A stretch of DNA of 64,000 nt, taken from NCBI GenBank assembly GCA_019636755.1, contig JAHBWZ010000006.1, positions 62,001 through 126,000 of the forward strand, written 5' to 3'. The stretch comes from Phycisphaeraceae bacterium (GTDB lineage Bacteria > Planctomycetota > Phycisphaerae > Phycisphaerales > SM1A02). Numbering within the stretch: the stretch's first letter is position 1; the number at the start of each line of letters is the position of its first letter. Of this stretch, positions 7,102 through 11,963 are shown piece after piece. The notes beneath the pieces are model-generated. The model worked only from the letters and a program-made list of their open reading frames with translations. It did no database searches and was not told the DNA's origin. The translations under genes were made by a program, and so were the position numbers.

Positions 7102-8619
7102 TCACCCGTCCGTGAACTGCCGGCGCAGGGTCTTCTTCGGAATGCCGAGCTGCTCGCGGTACTTCACGACGGTGCGCCGCGCGATCGGCATGCCGCGCCG
7201 TGCCAGTTCCCTGGCGAGTGCGTCGTCGCTCAGCGGGTCCGTCTTGTCCTCGGCATCGATGATCTCGCGCAGCGTGGCGCGGATCGCCTCCCAGGCCACG
7301 CCGTCACCGGCCTCGGTGCCGATGCCGCCCGAGAAGAACCGGCGGAGAGGCATGAGCCCGCGCGGCGTCTCCAGCCACTTGTCGGACACCGCGCGACTGA
7401 TCGTACCGACGCTCAGGCCCAGCTGGTCCGCGACCTCCGTCATCGTCAGCTGGCGAAGGTACTGCGAGCCCTCGTCGAAGAACTCCCGCTGCCGCGCGAT
7501 GACCACGTCCACCACGCGCAGCAGGGTCCGCTTGCGCTGCTCGATCGCGTCGATGAGCCCGCGCGCGGACAGGACGTGCTTCGAGATGAACTCGCGCGTC
7601 GTCCGGTCCTCGGTCCGGTCCGCCGCCATCGTCTCGTATCGGGGACGGACTCGAAGCGACGGAAGCCGGTCATTGCGGAGACGTGCGACATAGCAGTCAT
7701 TGACGTCGTCGTACTCGATGATCGCGTCCGGGATGATCGGGCGGACGGTCTCGTCCACGAGGTCGCGGGCGGGCGAGAGCGTCAGGCGTCCCATGAACTC
7801 CCGCGCCTCCTGGATCCGTCCGATCGGCAGCCCCGTGGCCTCCGAGATCGCGGGAAGCCGGTTGTGGATGAGATCATCCATGTGATCGGCGACGATCCGG
7901 CGCACGATCGACCAGGATTCGGCCCGCTCCTCGTCCTCTTCGCGGTGATGATCGATCTGGAGGAGGAGACACTCCACGTGCGAGCGCGCCGCGATGCCCG
8001 CCGGCTCCAGGTGCGCCTGGAGCAGCCGCAGGGCCCGCTCCAGGTCTTCCGCGGAGGGCGCCGGTCCGGGCAGGCGCTGCGCATGTTCAAGGATCGCGTC
8101 GAGCCCGTCGGTGAGCAGCCCGTCCGGGCCGATGAACTGGATGATCAGGCTGCCGGCGCGTCGCGTGTCATCGTCGGCCTCGACGAACCGCCACTGCGTC
8201 TCCAGCACTTCCGCCAGGCTCGGGCCGCGCCCGGCGACGTTCGCCATCGCGTCCATCTTGCCGTCGCGCTCACCGCGATCGTGGCGCCGTGCGCGCGTCG
8301 AGGAATACTCGTTCTCGAACGCCTCCGCATAGGACGACTCGAGGGCACCGAGACGGCGGAAGTCGTCCGACCCGTCACCCTCGCCGCCGACGACGAGTTC
8401 CTTCCGCCCGATGTCCGTCGCCTTTCCGTCCGACTCCTCCCGCTTCGCGCGGGCGCGATGTTCAACGATCTCCAGCGCGACGTTCTGTTCCAGTTCGCGC
8501 TGGATGTGCTCCTCCAGCTCCGTCAGCGGGAGTTCGAGGATGCGCATCGCCTGGATCTGCTGCGGCGAGATGCGCAGATCCTGCAGAAGCTTCTGATGCT
8601 GTCCGGTGTCGAGCCGCAT
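7102..8619 (-). CDS. rpoN: RNA polymerase sigma-54 factor
   Basis: 505 residues, the normal length for sigma-54. The N-terminus has the glutamine-rich region I that contacts activators (GQHQKLLQDLRISPQQIQAM, about 6-25) followed by an acidic region II. The core-binding domain spans about 120-310. A helix-turn-helix, TMTEVADQLGLSVGTISRAV, lies near 395-415. The C-terminus carries the diagnostic RpoN box as ARRTVVKYRE, one change from the usual ARRTVAKYRE. It directs polymerase to -24/-12 promoters and needs an AAA+ activator. The ATG at 8619 is 49 bp after recR, in the same direction, so rpoN is probably the last gene of the dnaX-recR operon. Confidence 0.95.
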   Translation of the reverse strand: MRLDTGQHQKLLQDLRISPQQIQAMRILELPLTELEEHIQRELEQNVALEIVEHRARAKREESDGKATDIGRKELVVGGEGDGSDDFRRLGALESSYAEAFENEYSSTRARRHDRGERDGKMDAMANVAGRGPSLAEVLETQWRFVEADDDTRRAGSLIIQFIGPDGLLTDGLDAILEHAQRLPGPAPSAEDLERALRLLQAHLEPAGIAARSHVECLLLQIDHHREEDEERAESWSIVRRIVADHMDDLIHNRLPAISEATGLPIGRIQEAREFMGRLTLSPARDLVDETVRPIIPDAIIEYDDVNDCYVARLRNDRLPSLRVRPRYETMAADRTEDRTTREFISKHVLSARGLIDAIEQRKRTLLRVVDVVIARQREFFDEGSQYLRQLTMTEVADQLGLSVGTISRAVSDKWLETPRGLMPLRRFFSGGIGTEAGDGVAWEAIRATLREIIDAEDKTDPLSDDALARELARRGMPIARRTVVKYREQLGIPKKTLRRQFTDG

Positions 8620-8668
8620 CGTCCGGGCAGTGTATCACGCCATCCTGCCCGGGCCCCGGACTGCGGCG

Positions 8669-9319
8669 TCACTCGGGATGCGGCCCCGGCATCATGCTGC
8701 GCGCGGCGATCGCGTCCGCAAGGACCGCGGGACTGGCGAAATCGAGGTGGGAACCCGAAGGAATGCCCCGGGCAAGCCGCGTCACCCGGACACCGAGCGG
8801 CGTGAGCTGCTCGGCAAGATAGAGCATGGTCCCGTCGCCCTCCAGCGTGGGATTGAGCCCCAGGATCACCTCGGCCACGCGGACTCCACCGACATTGTGC
8901 TCGGGCGCGGTGATCCGGTCGATGAGCGCCCTGATGGCAAGGTCCTCCGGTCCCACCGCGGCGAGCGGATCGATGAGACCGCCCAGTACGTGGTAGACGC
9001 CCCGGTAGAACCCCGTCGACTCCAGCGTGACGAGGTCCTTCGGCTGCTCGACGATCATCACCTGCGCGCGATCGCGGGACGGTTCGTCGCAGACCGGACA
9101 GATCGGCCGATCGGTCAGGTTCCAGCAGTACGGGCAGTGACGCACCTTGGCCCGCACGTCGCGCAGCGCGGCCGCGAGTGCTTCGAACTCCTCCCCGGAG
9201 GCGCGCAGCACGTGCAGCGCCATGCGCTCGGCACTCCGCCGGCCGATCCCCGGCATCCGGGTGAACGACTCGATCAGGCGTTCGACCGGTTCCGGATTGC
9301 CGCCGCGTCCCCGCTTCAT
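8669..9319 (-). CDS. recR: Recombination mediator RecR
   Basis: 216 residues, slightly longer than the usual 200. In order: a helix-hairpin-helix start (RLIESFTRMPGIGRRSAERMAL); the four-cysteine zinc finger CPYCWNLTDRPICPVC at about 81-96; a Toprim domain with VMIVEQPKD and GVYHVLGGLIDPL; and a C-terminal Walker-like stretch RVTRLARGIPSG. RecR acts with RecF and RecO to load RecA at gaps. Its ATG shares one base with the ebfC stop codon (TGATG), so the two are translationally coupled. The ebfC-recR pair is conserved next to dnaX in many bacteria. Confidence 0.96.
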   Translation of the reverse strand: MKRGRGGNPEPVERLIESFTRMPGIGRRSAERMALHVLRASGEEFEALAAALRDVRAKVRHCPYCWNLTDRPICPVCDEPSRDRAQVMIVEQPKDLVTLESTGFYRGVYHVLGGLIDPLAAVGPEDLAIRALIDRITAPEHNVGGVRVAEVILGLNPTLEGDGTMLYLAEQLTPLGVRVTRLARGIPSGSHLDFASPAVLADAIAARSMMPGPHPE

Positions 9320-9693
9320 CAGAGCAGTCCGCCCAGGCCGCCCGGCGGCAGCGGGAATCCCAGGTCACCCGCGGCCGCCTGGAGTTCGCTTTCCGCCGCG
9401 CTCCGCGCCTTCCCGAGCGCGGCGTTGACGGCACCGGCGATCAGTTCTTCGGCGATCAGTCGATCCTCGGCGGCCGCCGGATCGATCAGCGCCCCGAGCA
9501 TCGCCGGATCGATCTCCACCCGCGTGACCCGCAGGTCACCGGCGACGGTCGCGCGGACCGCGCCGCCCCCGGTTTCCGCGCTCACGCGCAGATCGCGCAG
9601 CCGCTCACGTGCCTCCTCGAACCGTGCCTTCAGCCGTGGCGCATCGCGCATGAGCGAGGCGATCTGCGTGAGTCCCTTCAATCCGTCGAACAT
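9319..9693 (-). CDS. ebfC: YbaB/EbfC family nucleoid-associated protein
   Basis: 124 residues, a little longer than typical. It has the family layout: an N-terminal helical arm (FDGLKGLTQIASLMRDAPRL), a central beta sheet with GGGAVRATVAGDLRVTRVEI, and a C-terminal helix AAEDRLIAEELIAGAVNAAL. It ends with the common Gly/Pro tail PPGGLGGLL. Family members form dimers that clamp DNA. It lies between the dnaX locus and recR, the canonical position. Confidence 0.93.
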   Translation of the reverse strand: MFDGLKGLTQIASLMRDAPRLKARFEEARERLRDLRVSAETGGGAVRATVAGDLRVTRVEIDPAMLGALIDPAAAEDRLIAEELIAGAVNAALGKARSAAESELQAAAGDLGFPLPPGGLGGLL

Positions 9694-9729: not shown

Positions 9730-10464
9730 TCAGGACCGGTTCCCGGCCATCATCGCACCGGCGCCCGGTCCGTCGGCCTCGCTGACATCGGTCACCACCG
9801 CGCCGAAGACCTCGATGGCCGTCCGCACCGCGGGCAGCGCCCGCACGGACGCCTCGGCACGGCTCCCGTCCGCACGGGACGACGGGATCGGCCCTGCCTC
9901 CGAGGGCCCCACGGGATCAGCGGGATTCCCTGCACCGCGCAGCGCCGGATCTTCCAGAATCTCGACCCGGAAGCGCCGGCCCACCGCATCGGCGATCAGC
10001 GTTCCGATGCGCTCGGCGCGACTGCACAGAATGGACAGCGACGAGGAGGCGCCCGGCACCCGGACCATCCGGAGGCGTCCGCCTTCGATCGCGATCGGCT
10101 GCACGTCGGCCAGCAGGCCACCGCCGACCACCGACACGTCATGGAACGCGCACACGCGCTCCCAGAGTGCCGCGACATCCTCGTCCGCCCCGCCCTCCTG
10201 AATGACCTCCCCCGGACTCGTGTCCCCGGCGCGCCGCTCACCCGCGCTCGCCGCGATCTCCGCGCGCTCCGCGGGCGCACGCGTGGTCGGCATGCTGGTC
10301 GGGGTGATGATCAGCGCCGGCGCCGCGGAACGGACCGACGGCGCGGCGTCCGCGCCGGCCCGCACCCCGGACATCGGGACCGCCGTGTCGGCGGGCGGCC
10401 GGGCCTCTTCGGGCGGGCGCGGCGGTGCATCGGAGCGGGCCGCGGGTGCGACCCGCTCCGTCAT
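9730..10464 (-). CDS. tau-like C-terminal part of DnaX, in the -1 frame and overlapping the dnaX stop
   Basis: A 244-codon frame whose first ATG overlaps the dnaX stop by 4 bp (ATGA). The first 100 residues are a Pro/Ala-rich linker. From about 105 it reads ALWERVCAFHDVSVVGGGLL and ADVQPIAIEGGRLRM, then a helix pair (LSILCSRAERIGTLIADAVG, FRVEIL). The spacing of Trp, LL and the strand 'pI.I.gg.L.m' resembles the C-terminal region of DnaX/tau in other bacteria (from memory; no alignment was run). No ribosome binding site lies at usable distance: the nearest GGAGG is about 19 nt before the ATG. A -1 frameshift at GGGAAAA would read straight into this frame, giving about 745 residues. The alternative is re-initiation by coupling at ATGA. 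See the frameshift entry. Confidence 0.65.
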   Translation of the reverse strand: MTERVAPAARSDAPPRPPEEARPPADTAVPMSGVRAGADAAPSVRSAAPALIITPTSMPTTRAPAERAEIAASAGERRAGDTSPGEVIQEGGADEDVAALWERVCAFHDVSVVGGGLLADVQPIAIEGGRLRMVRVPGASSSLSILCSRAERIGTLIADAVGRRFRVEILEDPALRGAGNPADPVGPSEAGPIPSSRADGSRAEASVRALPAVRTAIEVFGAVVTDVSEADGPGAGAMMAGNRS

Positions 10465-10488
10465 GCTTTTCCCGGCGAGCGGCCCTCC
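10431..10488 (-). promoter_or_regulatory. Putative -1 programmed ribosomal frameshift signal at the end of dnaX
   Basis: Read on the minus strand, three elements occur in canonical order. An SD-like GGAGGG (10488-10483) lies 9-10 nt before a slippery heptamer G GGA AAA (10473-10467), positioned so that GGA and AAA are in-frame dnaX codons. After 6 nt comes a 9-bp stem, CGGAGCGGG (10460-10452) pairing with CCCGCTCCG (10439-10431). A tighter alternative hairpin GCGGGT-CGC-ACCCGC lies within 10456-10442. The zero frame stops two codons after the heptamer (GCA TGA); the -1 frame continues for 246 codons. E. coli dnaX uses the same three-part design around A AAA AAG. Confidence 0.75.
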
Positions 10489-11963
10489 GCGCGAAGCGCC
10501 TGTCCGGCGTCCATGAACTCTGCGGCCAGGCAGAGGCGCACCAGGAGCGCGTCGAAGAGGGCACGGGCGGACGCCGCGAACCGCGCGTTCCGCGCGGTGG
10601 CCTCGCCGAGTGCGATGGCATGCACGATCGACGGCAGGTCGAATGCCGGAACGTGTCGGCGCGCCGCGTCCAGTTCAGCCTCGCTCAGGTCGATGGCGGG
10701 CGCACCACCCCCGGCGGCCGCGACGAACAGCATTGCGCGGAAGTGCTCGACCAGCAGCTCGATGGCCAGTTCGATGGTGGCGCCGCGCTCCAGCAGCTCC
10801 TGCCCGGTCGAGAGCGCTGCCGCGGGTTCCCGCCGCGAGATCGCGTCGACCAGCCGGACCACCACGTCCAGGTCCGGCAGCCCGAGCAGTTCCTCGGCAT
10901 GGGCCGCGGTGATCTCGCGCTCGCCGCCCGCCAGCAGCCGCTCGAGCAGGCTCAGCCCGTCCCGCATCGACCCGTTCGCCATGGCGGCGACGCGTCGCAG
11001 CACCGCATCGTCCGCGCGGATGCCTTCATCGTCCACCACGCGGCGCAGGTGCCGCGCAATGGTCGCCGCGGGAATCGCCCGGAAATCGAACCGCTGGCAG
11101 CGGCTCTGGATGGTCGCCGGAACCTTGTTCGGCTCCGTCGTGCAGAGGATGAACTTCACATGCGCCGGAGGCTCTTCCATCGTCTTGAGGAGCGTGTTGA
11201 ACGCGTCCTTCGTGAGCATATGGACTTCGTCGATGATGTAGATCCGGTACGGGCAGCGCGCCGGTGACAGCCCGGCGCTCGCGATGAGATCACGCGCCTC
11301 CTGTACACCGCGGTTCGAGGCGCCGTCGATCTCGATGACGTCGATGTCCTGACCGCGGAGGATCGCGTCGGCGATCGCGTCCCGCTCGCGCAGCGTGTCC
11401 GTCGCGTTCAGCGCGCGGGCGAAGATCCGCGCCATCGACGTCTTCCCGACTCCTCGCGTGCCGCAGAAGAGGTAGGCGTGCGCCACGCGGCCCGCGGTGA
11501 TCGCGTTCTGCAGGGTCCGCGCGATCGCATCCTGACCGACCAGTTCGGCAAAGTCACGCGACCGGTACCGCCGGGCCAGCACCGTGTACCCGGTCCCCGA
11601 CGATGCGCCGGATCCCCGGGTCGCCGGTCGCGTGTCTCCGGACCGGGGCACGGTGGGGACCTGGCCGATGACCGCGTCCGCGCCGGCATGCCCCGCGCCG
11701 GTCGCGGCCGATGCGGTCCCGACGGGTGCAGTCGACGGCATCTCCGGCGGGGCCGCGTCCGCGGTCGGCGCCGCGGGTTCCGGATTCCCCAGGAGATCGA
11801 AGCCCAGCCCCGGCTCGGATATCGCGGCGCCGGTCGGCCCCTCCGCCCGGTCGCCCGGATCGGCCGGGAGCGCGGCGCTGTCGGGACCGGTCGATGGTCC
11901 GCTCGCCGCGGGGTCCGGTTCCGCGACGGACTTCTTCGTGGTGGAACGTGGGCGGGCGGCCAT
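10461..11963 (-). CDS. dnaX: DNA polymerase III clamp-loader subunit gamma/tau (zero-frame product)
   Basis: 500 residues. A 120-residue Pro/Ala-rich N-terminal extension precedes the AAA+ core, which begins YTVLARRYRSRDFAELVGQD. Walker A is GTRGVGKTS, Walker B is IYIIDEVHML, and the sensor/arginine-finger region is IQSRCQRFDFR. The clamp-loader collar continues to about 480. The four-cysteine zinc module normally found between Walker A and Walker B is absent: after RALNA comes TDTLRERDAIADAIL with no cysteines. The zero frame ends shortly after the collar, giving a gamma-like protein. The tau domain is encoded in the overlapping -1 frame. The gene lies downstream of the SRP RNA and heads the ebfC-recR-rpoN cluster. 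Confidence 0.94.
   Translation of the reverse strand: MAARPRSTTKKSVAEPDPAASGPSTGPDSAALPADPGDRAEGPTGAAISEPGLGFDLLGNPEPAAPTADAAPPEMPSTAPVGTASAATGAGHAGADAVIGQVPTVPRSGDTRPATRGSGASSGTGYTVLARRYRSRDFAELVGQDAIARTLQNAITAGRVAHAYLFCGTRGVGKTSMARIFARALNATDTLRERDAIADAILRGQDIDVIEIDGASNRGVQEARDLIASAGLSPARCPYRIYIIDEVHMLTKDAFNTLLKTMEEPPAHVKFILCTTEPNKVPATIQSRCQRFDFRAIPAATIARHLRRVVDDEGIRADDAVLRRVAAMANGSMRDGLSLLERLLAGGEREITAAHAEELLGLPDLDVVVRLVDAISRREPAAALSTGQELLERGATIELAIELLVEHFRAMLFVAAAGGGAPAIDLSEAELDAARRHVPAFDLPSIVHAIALGEATARNARFAASARALFDALLVRLCLAAEFMDAGQALRAEGRSPGKA

Follow-up and report, generated by a model that had tools for sequence, protein, structure and literature searches.

The window, i.e., the whole 64,000-nucleotide stretch of Phycisphaeraceae DNA that was analysed, carries on its minus strand a dnaX gene divided between two overlapping reading frames (Table 1). 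The zero-frame product contains the Pfam domains DNA_pol3_delta2, DNAX_ATPase_lid, and DNA_pol3_gamma3, the last of which reaches residue 491, and scores 365 bits against TIGR02397 (dnaX_nterm). Positions 3-360 of NCBIfam NF011526 (DnaX) match this product and positions 388-576 match that of the -1 frame (E 1.9e-4), such that each frame covers one half of a single DnaX model, in colinear order. Joined, they would form a protein of 499 + 245 = 744 residues with a computed mass of 76.9 kDa (52.2 kDa for gamma), close to the fusion of roughly 75 kDa predicted in a preliminary description of this DNA. Ahead of the conserved DnaX core lies a low-complexity N-terminal extension of about 125 residues (11589-11963, minus strand), for which the start codon is uncertain. 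The ORFs 3' of dnaX (7102-9693, minus strand) we take to be ybaB (9319-9693), recR (8669-9319), and a gene for an rpoN-like sigma-54 factor (7102-8619); the putative recR ORF overlaps the putative ybaB ORF by one base.

Table 1. Features of the divided dnaX gene, in window coordinates.
Feature	Position	Strand	Remarks
dnaX zero frame, 500 aa, gamma-like	10461..11963	-	AAA+ clamp-loader ATPase, domains I-III; ends ..SPGKA-stop
Internal SD-like GGAGGG	10488-10483	-	9 nt 5' of heptamer; anti-SD duplex -10.0 kcal/mol
Slippery heptamer G GGA AAA	10473-10467	-	X_XXY_YYZ phase of zero frame
Zero-frame TGA	10461..10463	-	overlaps -1-frame ATG (10464-10462)
Stem-loop	10431..10460	-	9 bp perfect, 13 bp in predicted fold; begins 6 nt 3' of heptamer
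-1 extension, 245 codons + stop	9730..10467	-	Pro-rich linker + tau C-terminal region
Predicted folded domain of tau extension	9937..10176	-	AlphaFold2
Conserved C-terminal motif LPAVRTAIEVFGAVVTDV	9784..9837	-	alignment A2; relatives' consensus PLVRxAxELFDA

That the -1 frame encodes the tau C-terminus, as had been proposed from its appearance, is borne out by its colinear match to NF011526 and by a tau HMM made from the tails of unsplit relatives, which matches it at E 1e-22. By Pfam alone the window's tau part has no recognised match, the best being PF12362 at E 0.22, and 5 of the 34 members of alignment A2 match that family at E 0.01. AlphaFold2 modelled the -1 product with a block of pLDDT 93-97 over residues 101-170 (whole-model mean 71.7, pTM 0.44), and a fold search of the PDB returned weak matches, of which DnaA domain I was the best (E 4e-3) and the E. 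coli tau C-terminal domain, 2AYA, ranked 27th (E 0.26). The folded domain is presumably KH-like. In five loci of another genus (L065, L067, L070, L077, L124), the extension measures 69-82 residues and consists of a Pro-rich linker ending in a conserved LVRRARELFAPE-like motif, with no folded domain detected by the tau HMM; such extensions point to the C-terminal motif as what the shift has to append. An alternative is a broken dnaX whose work is done by a second copy. Nothing specific speaks for it, domain III is intact, the tau part is recognisable, and the source genome's next matches to the DnaX model score much lower than the window gene (E 4e-14 and 2e-5 vs 1e-116); we thus reject a pseudogene as having a negligible probability.

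The two frames meet at a compact set of elements, and the Shine-Dalgarno (SD)-like sequence, heptamer, spacers, and stem reported earlier proved correct base for base. Zero-frame codons at the junction read CCG GGA AAA GCA TGA, such that, as had been claimed, the zero frame stops soon after the heptamer, with one more codon (GCA) before TGA. A 6-nt spacer, GCATGA, separates the heptamer from the perfect 9-bp stem, in which CGGAGCGGG (10460-10452) pairs with CCCGCTCCG (10439-10431). In the minimum-free-energy fold the stem has 13 bp (10460-10448 with 10443-10431) and a 4-nt loop, and GCAT/ATGC pairing lengthens it to 10466-10427. The 50 nt from 10470 fold at -33.1 kcal/mol (z -5.4), a stability equalled by 0 of 200 shuffles. 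A search of the source genome for the 16S-end (anti-SD) pattern GGATCACCTCCTT gave 2 occurrences. GGGAAAA occurs once in the 64-kb window, counting both strands, with 1.29 copies expected, and is by itself not surprising. It is the combination of SD, heptamer, and stem that is surprising: a scan of every third window position on both strands found an SD duplex of -9.9 kcal/mol or stronger together with a helix of at least 9 bp at the same spacing at 13 of 42,574 positions. The window has no A7 on either strand, the longest A run at the junction is A4, no homopolymer there exceeds 4, and the +1 frame is open for 75 codons past the junction.

Relatives were drawn from two genome samples and a class-level addition. 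In the first sample, 58 of 61 genomes had a strong dnaX match among the matches listed and 60 of 61 had some match, with G018 and G023 matching at E about 2e-9 only; in the order sample, the matches listed included a strong one for 189 of 201 genomes. We examined 137 order loci, one per genome, of which L090 is cut by a contig end. For other families the best 60 loci by score were taken, and 19 loci added for the window's own family came from the best 30; two added loci of that family (G154, G131) were chosen for a frame on the short side. At class level, 32 loci were fetched and 27 used, after L298, L302, and L304 (contig ends) and L307 and L309 (without site) were dropped. Since 15 of the 32 were picked for a frame below 460 aa and 4 more (G223, G338, G216, G259; 478-529 aa) as short-side, class-level polarity frequencies are not representative. 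Order loci and class-level additions with a usable site together make a set of 170; left out of it were L051 and L115 (without site), L059 (only GGGAAAG), L325 (contig end), and L045, where the script picked GGGAAAC first though an A run follows. The tau frame was assigned as the longer open frame, and L123 was reassigned manually from +1 to the zero frame, in which the tau HMM has its match. Run on all 170 loci, the HMM supports the assigned frame in 162 and never contradicts it, the other 8 being without a match.

Among the 137 order loci, 68 are unsplit, 68 are split (the window gene included), and one is the locus cut by the contig end. In every split locus (68/68), the zero-frame stop follows an in-phase slippery run at a distance of 0-13 codons. 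Past the run, the -1 frame is open in 67 of the 68, and L061 uses +1; the tau HMM matches the -1 frame in 60, the +1 frame in 1 (L061), and no frame in 7, at least 5 of which have short extensions keeping the C-terminal motif. An in-phase slippery run is also present in 65 of the 68 unsplit genes, no further than 250 nt from where the domain III match ends (none was found over that distance in L051, L059, and L115), such that, from these sequences, the slippery site seems older than the split.

These counts bear on whether the junction is a sequencing or assembly indel in an uninterrupted dnaX, for which uninterrupted relatives had been named as the telling sign. Such relatives do exist: half of the order loci are unsplit, as are 41 of the 52 complete loci of the window's family, and the samples held no congener of the window organism and hence no close replicate of its sequence. 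As a sign of an indel, however, they fail, because 65 of the 68 unsplit loci keep the slippery run near the same place. Nor would an indel create an in-phase heptamer flanked by a correctly spaced SD and stem and followed one codon later by a stop. The junction homopolymers are all of 4 or fewer, and GGGAAAA-GCC-TGA followed by a stem recurs in 5 genomes of another genus (the five loci with short extensions above). With the signal geometry intact and the same arrangement found elsewhere, an indel is rejected as extremely improbable.

Of the 170 loci, 96 have a run of at least nine A (A≥9 loci) and the other 74 have A7-A8, GGGAAAA, or CCCAAAA (short-run loci; 73 in the statistics, L310 being excluded from those on stem, SD, and closure). 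The tau frame of A≥9 loci is zero in 70, -1 in 21, and +1 in 5; that of short-run loci is -1 in 62 and zero in 12. Among A≥9 loci, 88 of 96 have stops in both other frames within 15 codons; among short-run loci, 11 of 73 do. Helices at A≥9 sites are near chance, with at least 7 bp in 13 of 96 (6.7 expected) and at least 9 bp in 1 (1.1 expected). Short-run loci with tau in -1 have a helix of at least 7 bp starting 4-9 nt past the run in 37 of 62, where shuffles predict 5.8, and 21 of those 37 start after exactly 6 nt; helices of at least 9 bp occur in 22 of 62 (0.9 expected). Their mean SD duplex peaks at -6.15 kcal/mol, 6 nt 5' of the heptamer, that of A≥9 loci being about -1.6, and a GGAG/AGGA/GAGG core lies 6-18 nt upstream in 36 of 62 (9 and 6 in control stretches; 8 of 96 among A≥9 loci). 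The 11 short-run loci with tau in the zero frame show helices in 7 (1.3 expected), a mean SD duplex of -5.54, and an SD core in 2. Mean structure z-scores at split loci are -1.98 for A7-8 (n 47), -1.78 for XXXAAAA (n 10), and -0.16 for A9+ (n 11); at unsplit loci they are -0.93 for A7-8 (n 11) and -0.20 for A9+ (n 53), with control stretches at -0.64 to +0.47.

The earlier question of whether the signal is conserved thus has a divided answer: the slippery site is, and the SD and stem are as group averages, with 25 of the 62 short-run tau-in--1 loci showing no helix of at least 7 bp at 4-9 nt and 26 of 62 no SD core 6-18 nt upstream. In alignment A3 of the GGGAAAA genus, differing loop lengths put the 3' arms of the stem out of register, and stem conservation is judged from helix counts against shuffles. 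A comparison of 9 independent pairs, which controls for relatedness, links frame closure to run length (median p 0.008); a short run with a stem and with an SD goes in the right direction without reaching significance (median p 0.125 each, same 9 pairs).

Several individual loci may be set beside these totals. In L061, L293, L294, L306, and L327, with A9-A12 and tau in +1, neither the zero nor the -1 frame stays open for more than 10 codons. Short-run sites with the polarity of E. coli, i.e., tau in the zero frame and a stop in -1 after two or three codons, are found in one genus of the window's family (L104, L109, L111, L113, L118, L120, L121). Among the 11 short-run tau-in-zero loci, a helix of at least 7 bp starts after 8 nt, not 6, in 5. 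The matches listed also included three loci from metagenome-assembled genomes (MAGs). The two from Phycisphaerales, JAGQON010000037.1 (L184, A7) and JARGNC010000041.1 (L185, A8), stop in the zero frame after one further codon, carry the long frame in -1, and have a weaker SD (-5.7 and -5.6); in QWPU01000008.1 (L183), from a Planctomycetota MAG, A7 is combined with the polarity of E. coli and a strong SD (-9.5).

Because both other frames close, helices are near chance, and tau lies in any of the three frames, the A≥9 loci fit transcriptional slippage, having the features that this process needs, and their sites would be assigned to RNA polymerase. Short-run sites with SD and stem have features that would instead suit slippage by the ribosome. 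Could the window gene itself yield a mixed mRNA population by transcriptional slippage, as dnaX of Thermus thermophilus does? Such A≥9 relatives lend this some support, and slippage is described as able to combine two shorter homopolymers (PMC3711429), of which G3A4 is formally an instance. The window site, however, amounts to no more than G3A4, its +1 frame is open, and slippage would not need the strong SD and stem. Given no long A run, an open +1 frame, and strong stimulators, we reject transcriptional slippage for this gene as highly improbable.

Translational coupling is another way of using both frames: after terminating at TGA, ribosomes would reinitiate at the ATG that overlaps it, and the products would be gamma and a separate 25-kDa protein comprising the tau C-terminus. 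The ATGA overlap that it calls for is present in the window gene, one of 11 of the 62 short-run tau-in--1 loci to have it. Between a point up to 90 nt 5' of the heptamer start and one about 97 nt 3' of it, a scan nevertheless found the -1 frame without ATG in 46 of these 62 loci (the window gene among the 62) and without ATG, GTG, or TTG in 26, such that separate translation cannot be general, and as a general mechanism coupling is rejected. In the window gene, the SD ends 18 nt 5' of the ATG, a distance too great for initiation and right for frameshifting. Coupling also leaves unexplained both the conserved slippery run and its retention by the unsplit relatives. The view of the preliminary description that simple separate translation is disfavoured is upheld by the SD distance and the loci without ATG, and for the window gene we regard coupling as very unlikely.

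From the arrangement of these sequence elements it is thus very probable that standard decoding of the window dnaX gives gamma and that a programmed -1 ribosomal frameshift gives tau. That the shift would make the longer product, with a polarity opposite to that of E. coli, had been claimed before, and is supported by the colinearity of the -1 frame with DnaX and by the relatives that share the site. As a ribosome reaches the heptamer, a Gly-tRNA would occupy GGA in the P-site and a Lys-tRNA with anticodon UUU would occupy AAA in the A-site, with pairing of GGAGGG to 16S rRNA behind and the GC stem ahead holding the ribosome in place. Both tRNAs would then re-pair one base back, from GGA-AAA to GGG-AAA, after which AGC-ATG-... 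would be decoded and 245 codons added, giving 744 aa. Non-slipping ribosomes would decode GCA and terminate at TGA, giving 500 aa. Tau is essential in E. coli; that it is essential in this organism, like the slippage itself and its frequency, is something we infer. Among the 30 of 46 tRNA loci examined in the source genome are tRNA-Gly with anticodons UCC, CCC, and GCC and tRNA-Lys with both UUU and CUU. According to PMC4066793, early work found G_GGA_AAA inefficient in E. coli, yet some IS elements use it. All 74 short-run heptamers end in AAA and none in AAG, counted after L059 (GGGAAAG) and L045 (GGGAAAC) were set aside. This fits the argument set out in PMC5009743 that slippage on AAG is efficient if a single tRNA-Lys decodes it, as in E. 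coli; the source genome differs in having two tRNA-Lys.

How the site came about was traced on a FastTree tree of the core protein (371 columns; 54 of 167 inner branches weak). On this tree the tau frame requires at least 29 changes; counting supported branches only, tau in -1 requires 14. For the kind of site, 12 changes are required (9 forced). GGGAAAA without a longer A run occurs at 9 loci and takes at least 4 changes, 2 of them on supported branches. The branch of the window gene arises at a fork within its family that the tree does not resolve; its neighbours there are two A≥9 genes whose tau frame is zero. The A≥9 kind accounts for 26 of the 27 class-level loci used, which suggests that it is ancestral; the sample was largely picked for short frames, a choice that biases polarity but probably not run length. 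Sites of the putative polymerase type (A9-A10, other frames closed) have tau in the zero, -1, or +1 frame; those of the putative ribosome type (A7 or GGGAAAA with SD and stem) were found with tau in zero or -1 only, the two frames compared for short runs. We consider it likely that the Phycisphaerae have kept a two-product dnaX site while the tau frame and the machine that slips, polymerase or ribosome, keep changing. The window gene would be a separate polymerase-to-ribosome conversion in which the A run was lost to G3A4, leaving a probably essential replisome subunit to hang on a -1 ribosomal frameshift.

Comparison with known systems places the window gene close to E. coli dnaX, in which AGGGAG is followed by 10 nt, AAAAAAG, 5 nt, and the main stem, with the gamma stop one codon past the slip site. 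Both have an SD-like element 9-10 nt upstream, an X_XXY_YYZ heptamer, a downstream stem, and a gamma stop one codon on. They differ in stem distance (5 nt in E. coli, 6 nt here), in heptamer (AAAAAAG vs GGGAAAA), and in polarity, the zero frame giving tau and the shift gamma in E. coli, and the reverse in the window gene. The Thermus thermophilus gene is the same gene with the same two products, and its hallmarks, a long A run and closed frames, recur in the A≥9 relatives; the window gene is unlike it, with no run of about 9 A, an open +1 frame, and strong stimulators. The frameshift of prfB, the gene for release factor 2, is a +1 shift, autoregulated, and essential. There too, the full-length protein needs the frameshift (PMC12421855), although the site is different.

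Reverse-polarity dnaX genes have precedents. In the GeneTack survey of Antonov et al. (2013), 17 dnaX genes from 12 genera needed recoding for tau (PMC3711429), and the arrangement described, two overlapping ORFs with a -1 shift for tau and a gamma stop near the site, is that of the window gene (PMC3711429, PMC5009743). Twelve of those 17 genes have poly-A (A7-A10), read as transcriptional slippage, and two planctomycete species were covered (PMC3711429). The window gene, with G3A4, SD, and stem, is unlike these poly-A genes; most of its relatives have A7 or longer. For Chlorobium phaeobacteroides, Atkins et al. (2016) mention possible E. coli-like stimulators as an unpublished observation (PMC5009743), and Sharma et al. 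(2014) speak of reversed cases as limited in number (PMC4066793). Tau by frameshifting is thus already published as a polarity and is not new in itself (PMC3711429, PMC5009743). A search of open-access literature by title and the start of the abstract found no paper that deals with dnaX frameshifting in planctomycetes or with GGGAAAA as a dnaX slippery site; nor did it find an account of polarity and inferred mechanism switching repeatedly inside a single class. The GGGAAAA/SD/stem version in planctomycetes is possibly new, and a planctomycete among the 12 genera of Antonov et al. would count against this.

Taken as a natural experiment on recoding, one two-product gene seems to have repeatedly swapped its slipping machine and its polarity, and the swaps go along with differences in run length, closure of frames, SD, and stem. 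Should this be confirmed, tau would depend on ribosomal frameshifting in many genera, and gene callers would truncate DnaX in those genera.

Two further loci merit mention. In L147 (G208), the GGGAAAAAAA run holds both the GGGAAAA and the A7 heptamers in phase and may be an intermediate between these two sites. L089 (G021), from a small genome in the window's family, has a very long-branched dnaX, at 1.47 changes per column.
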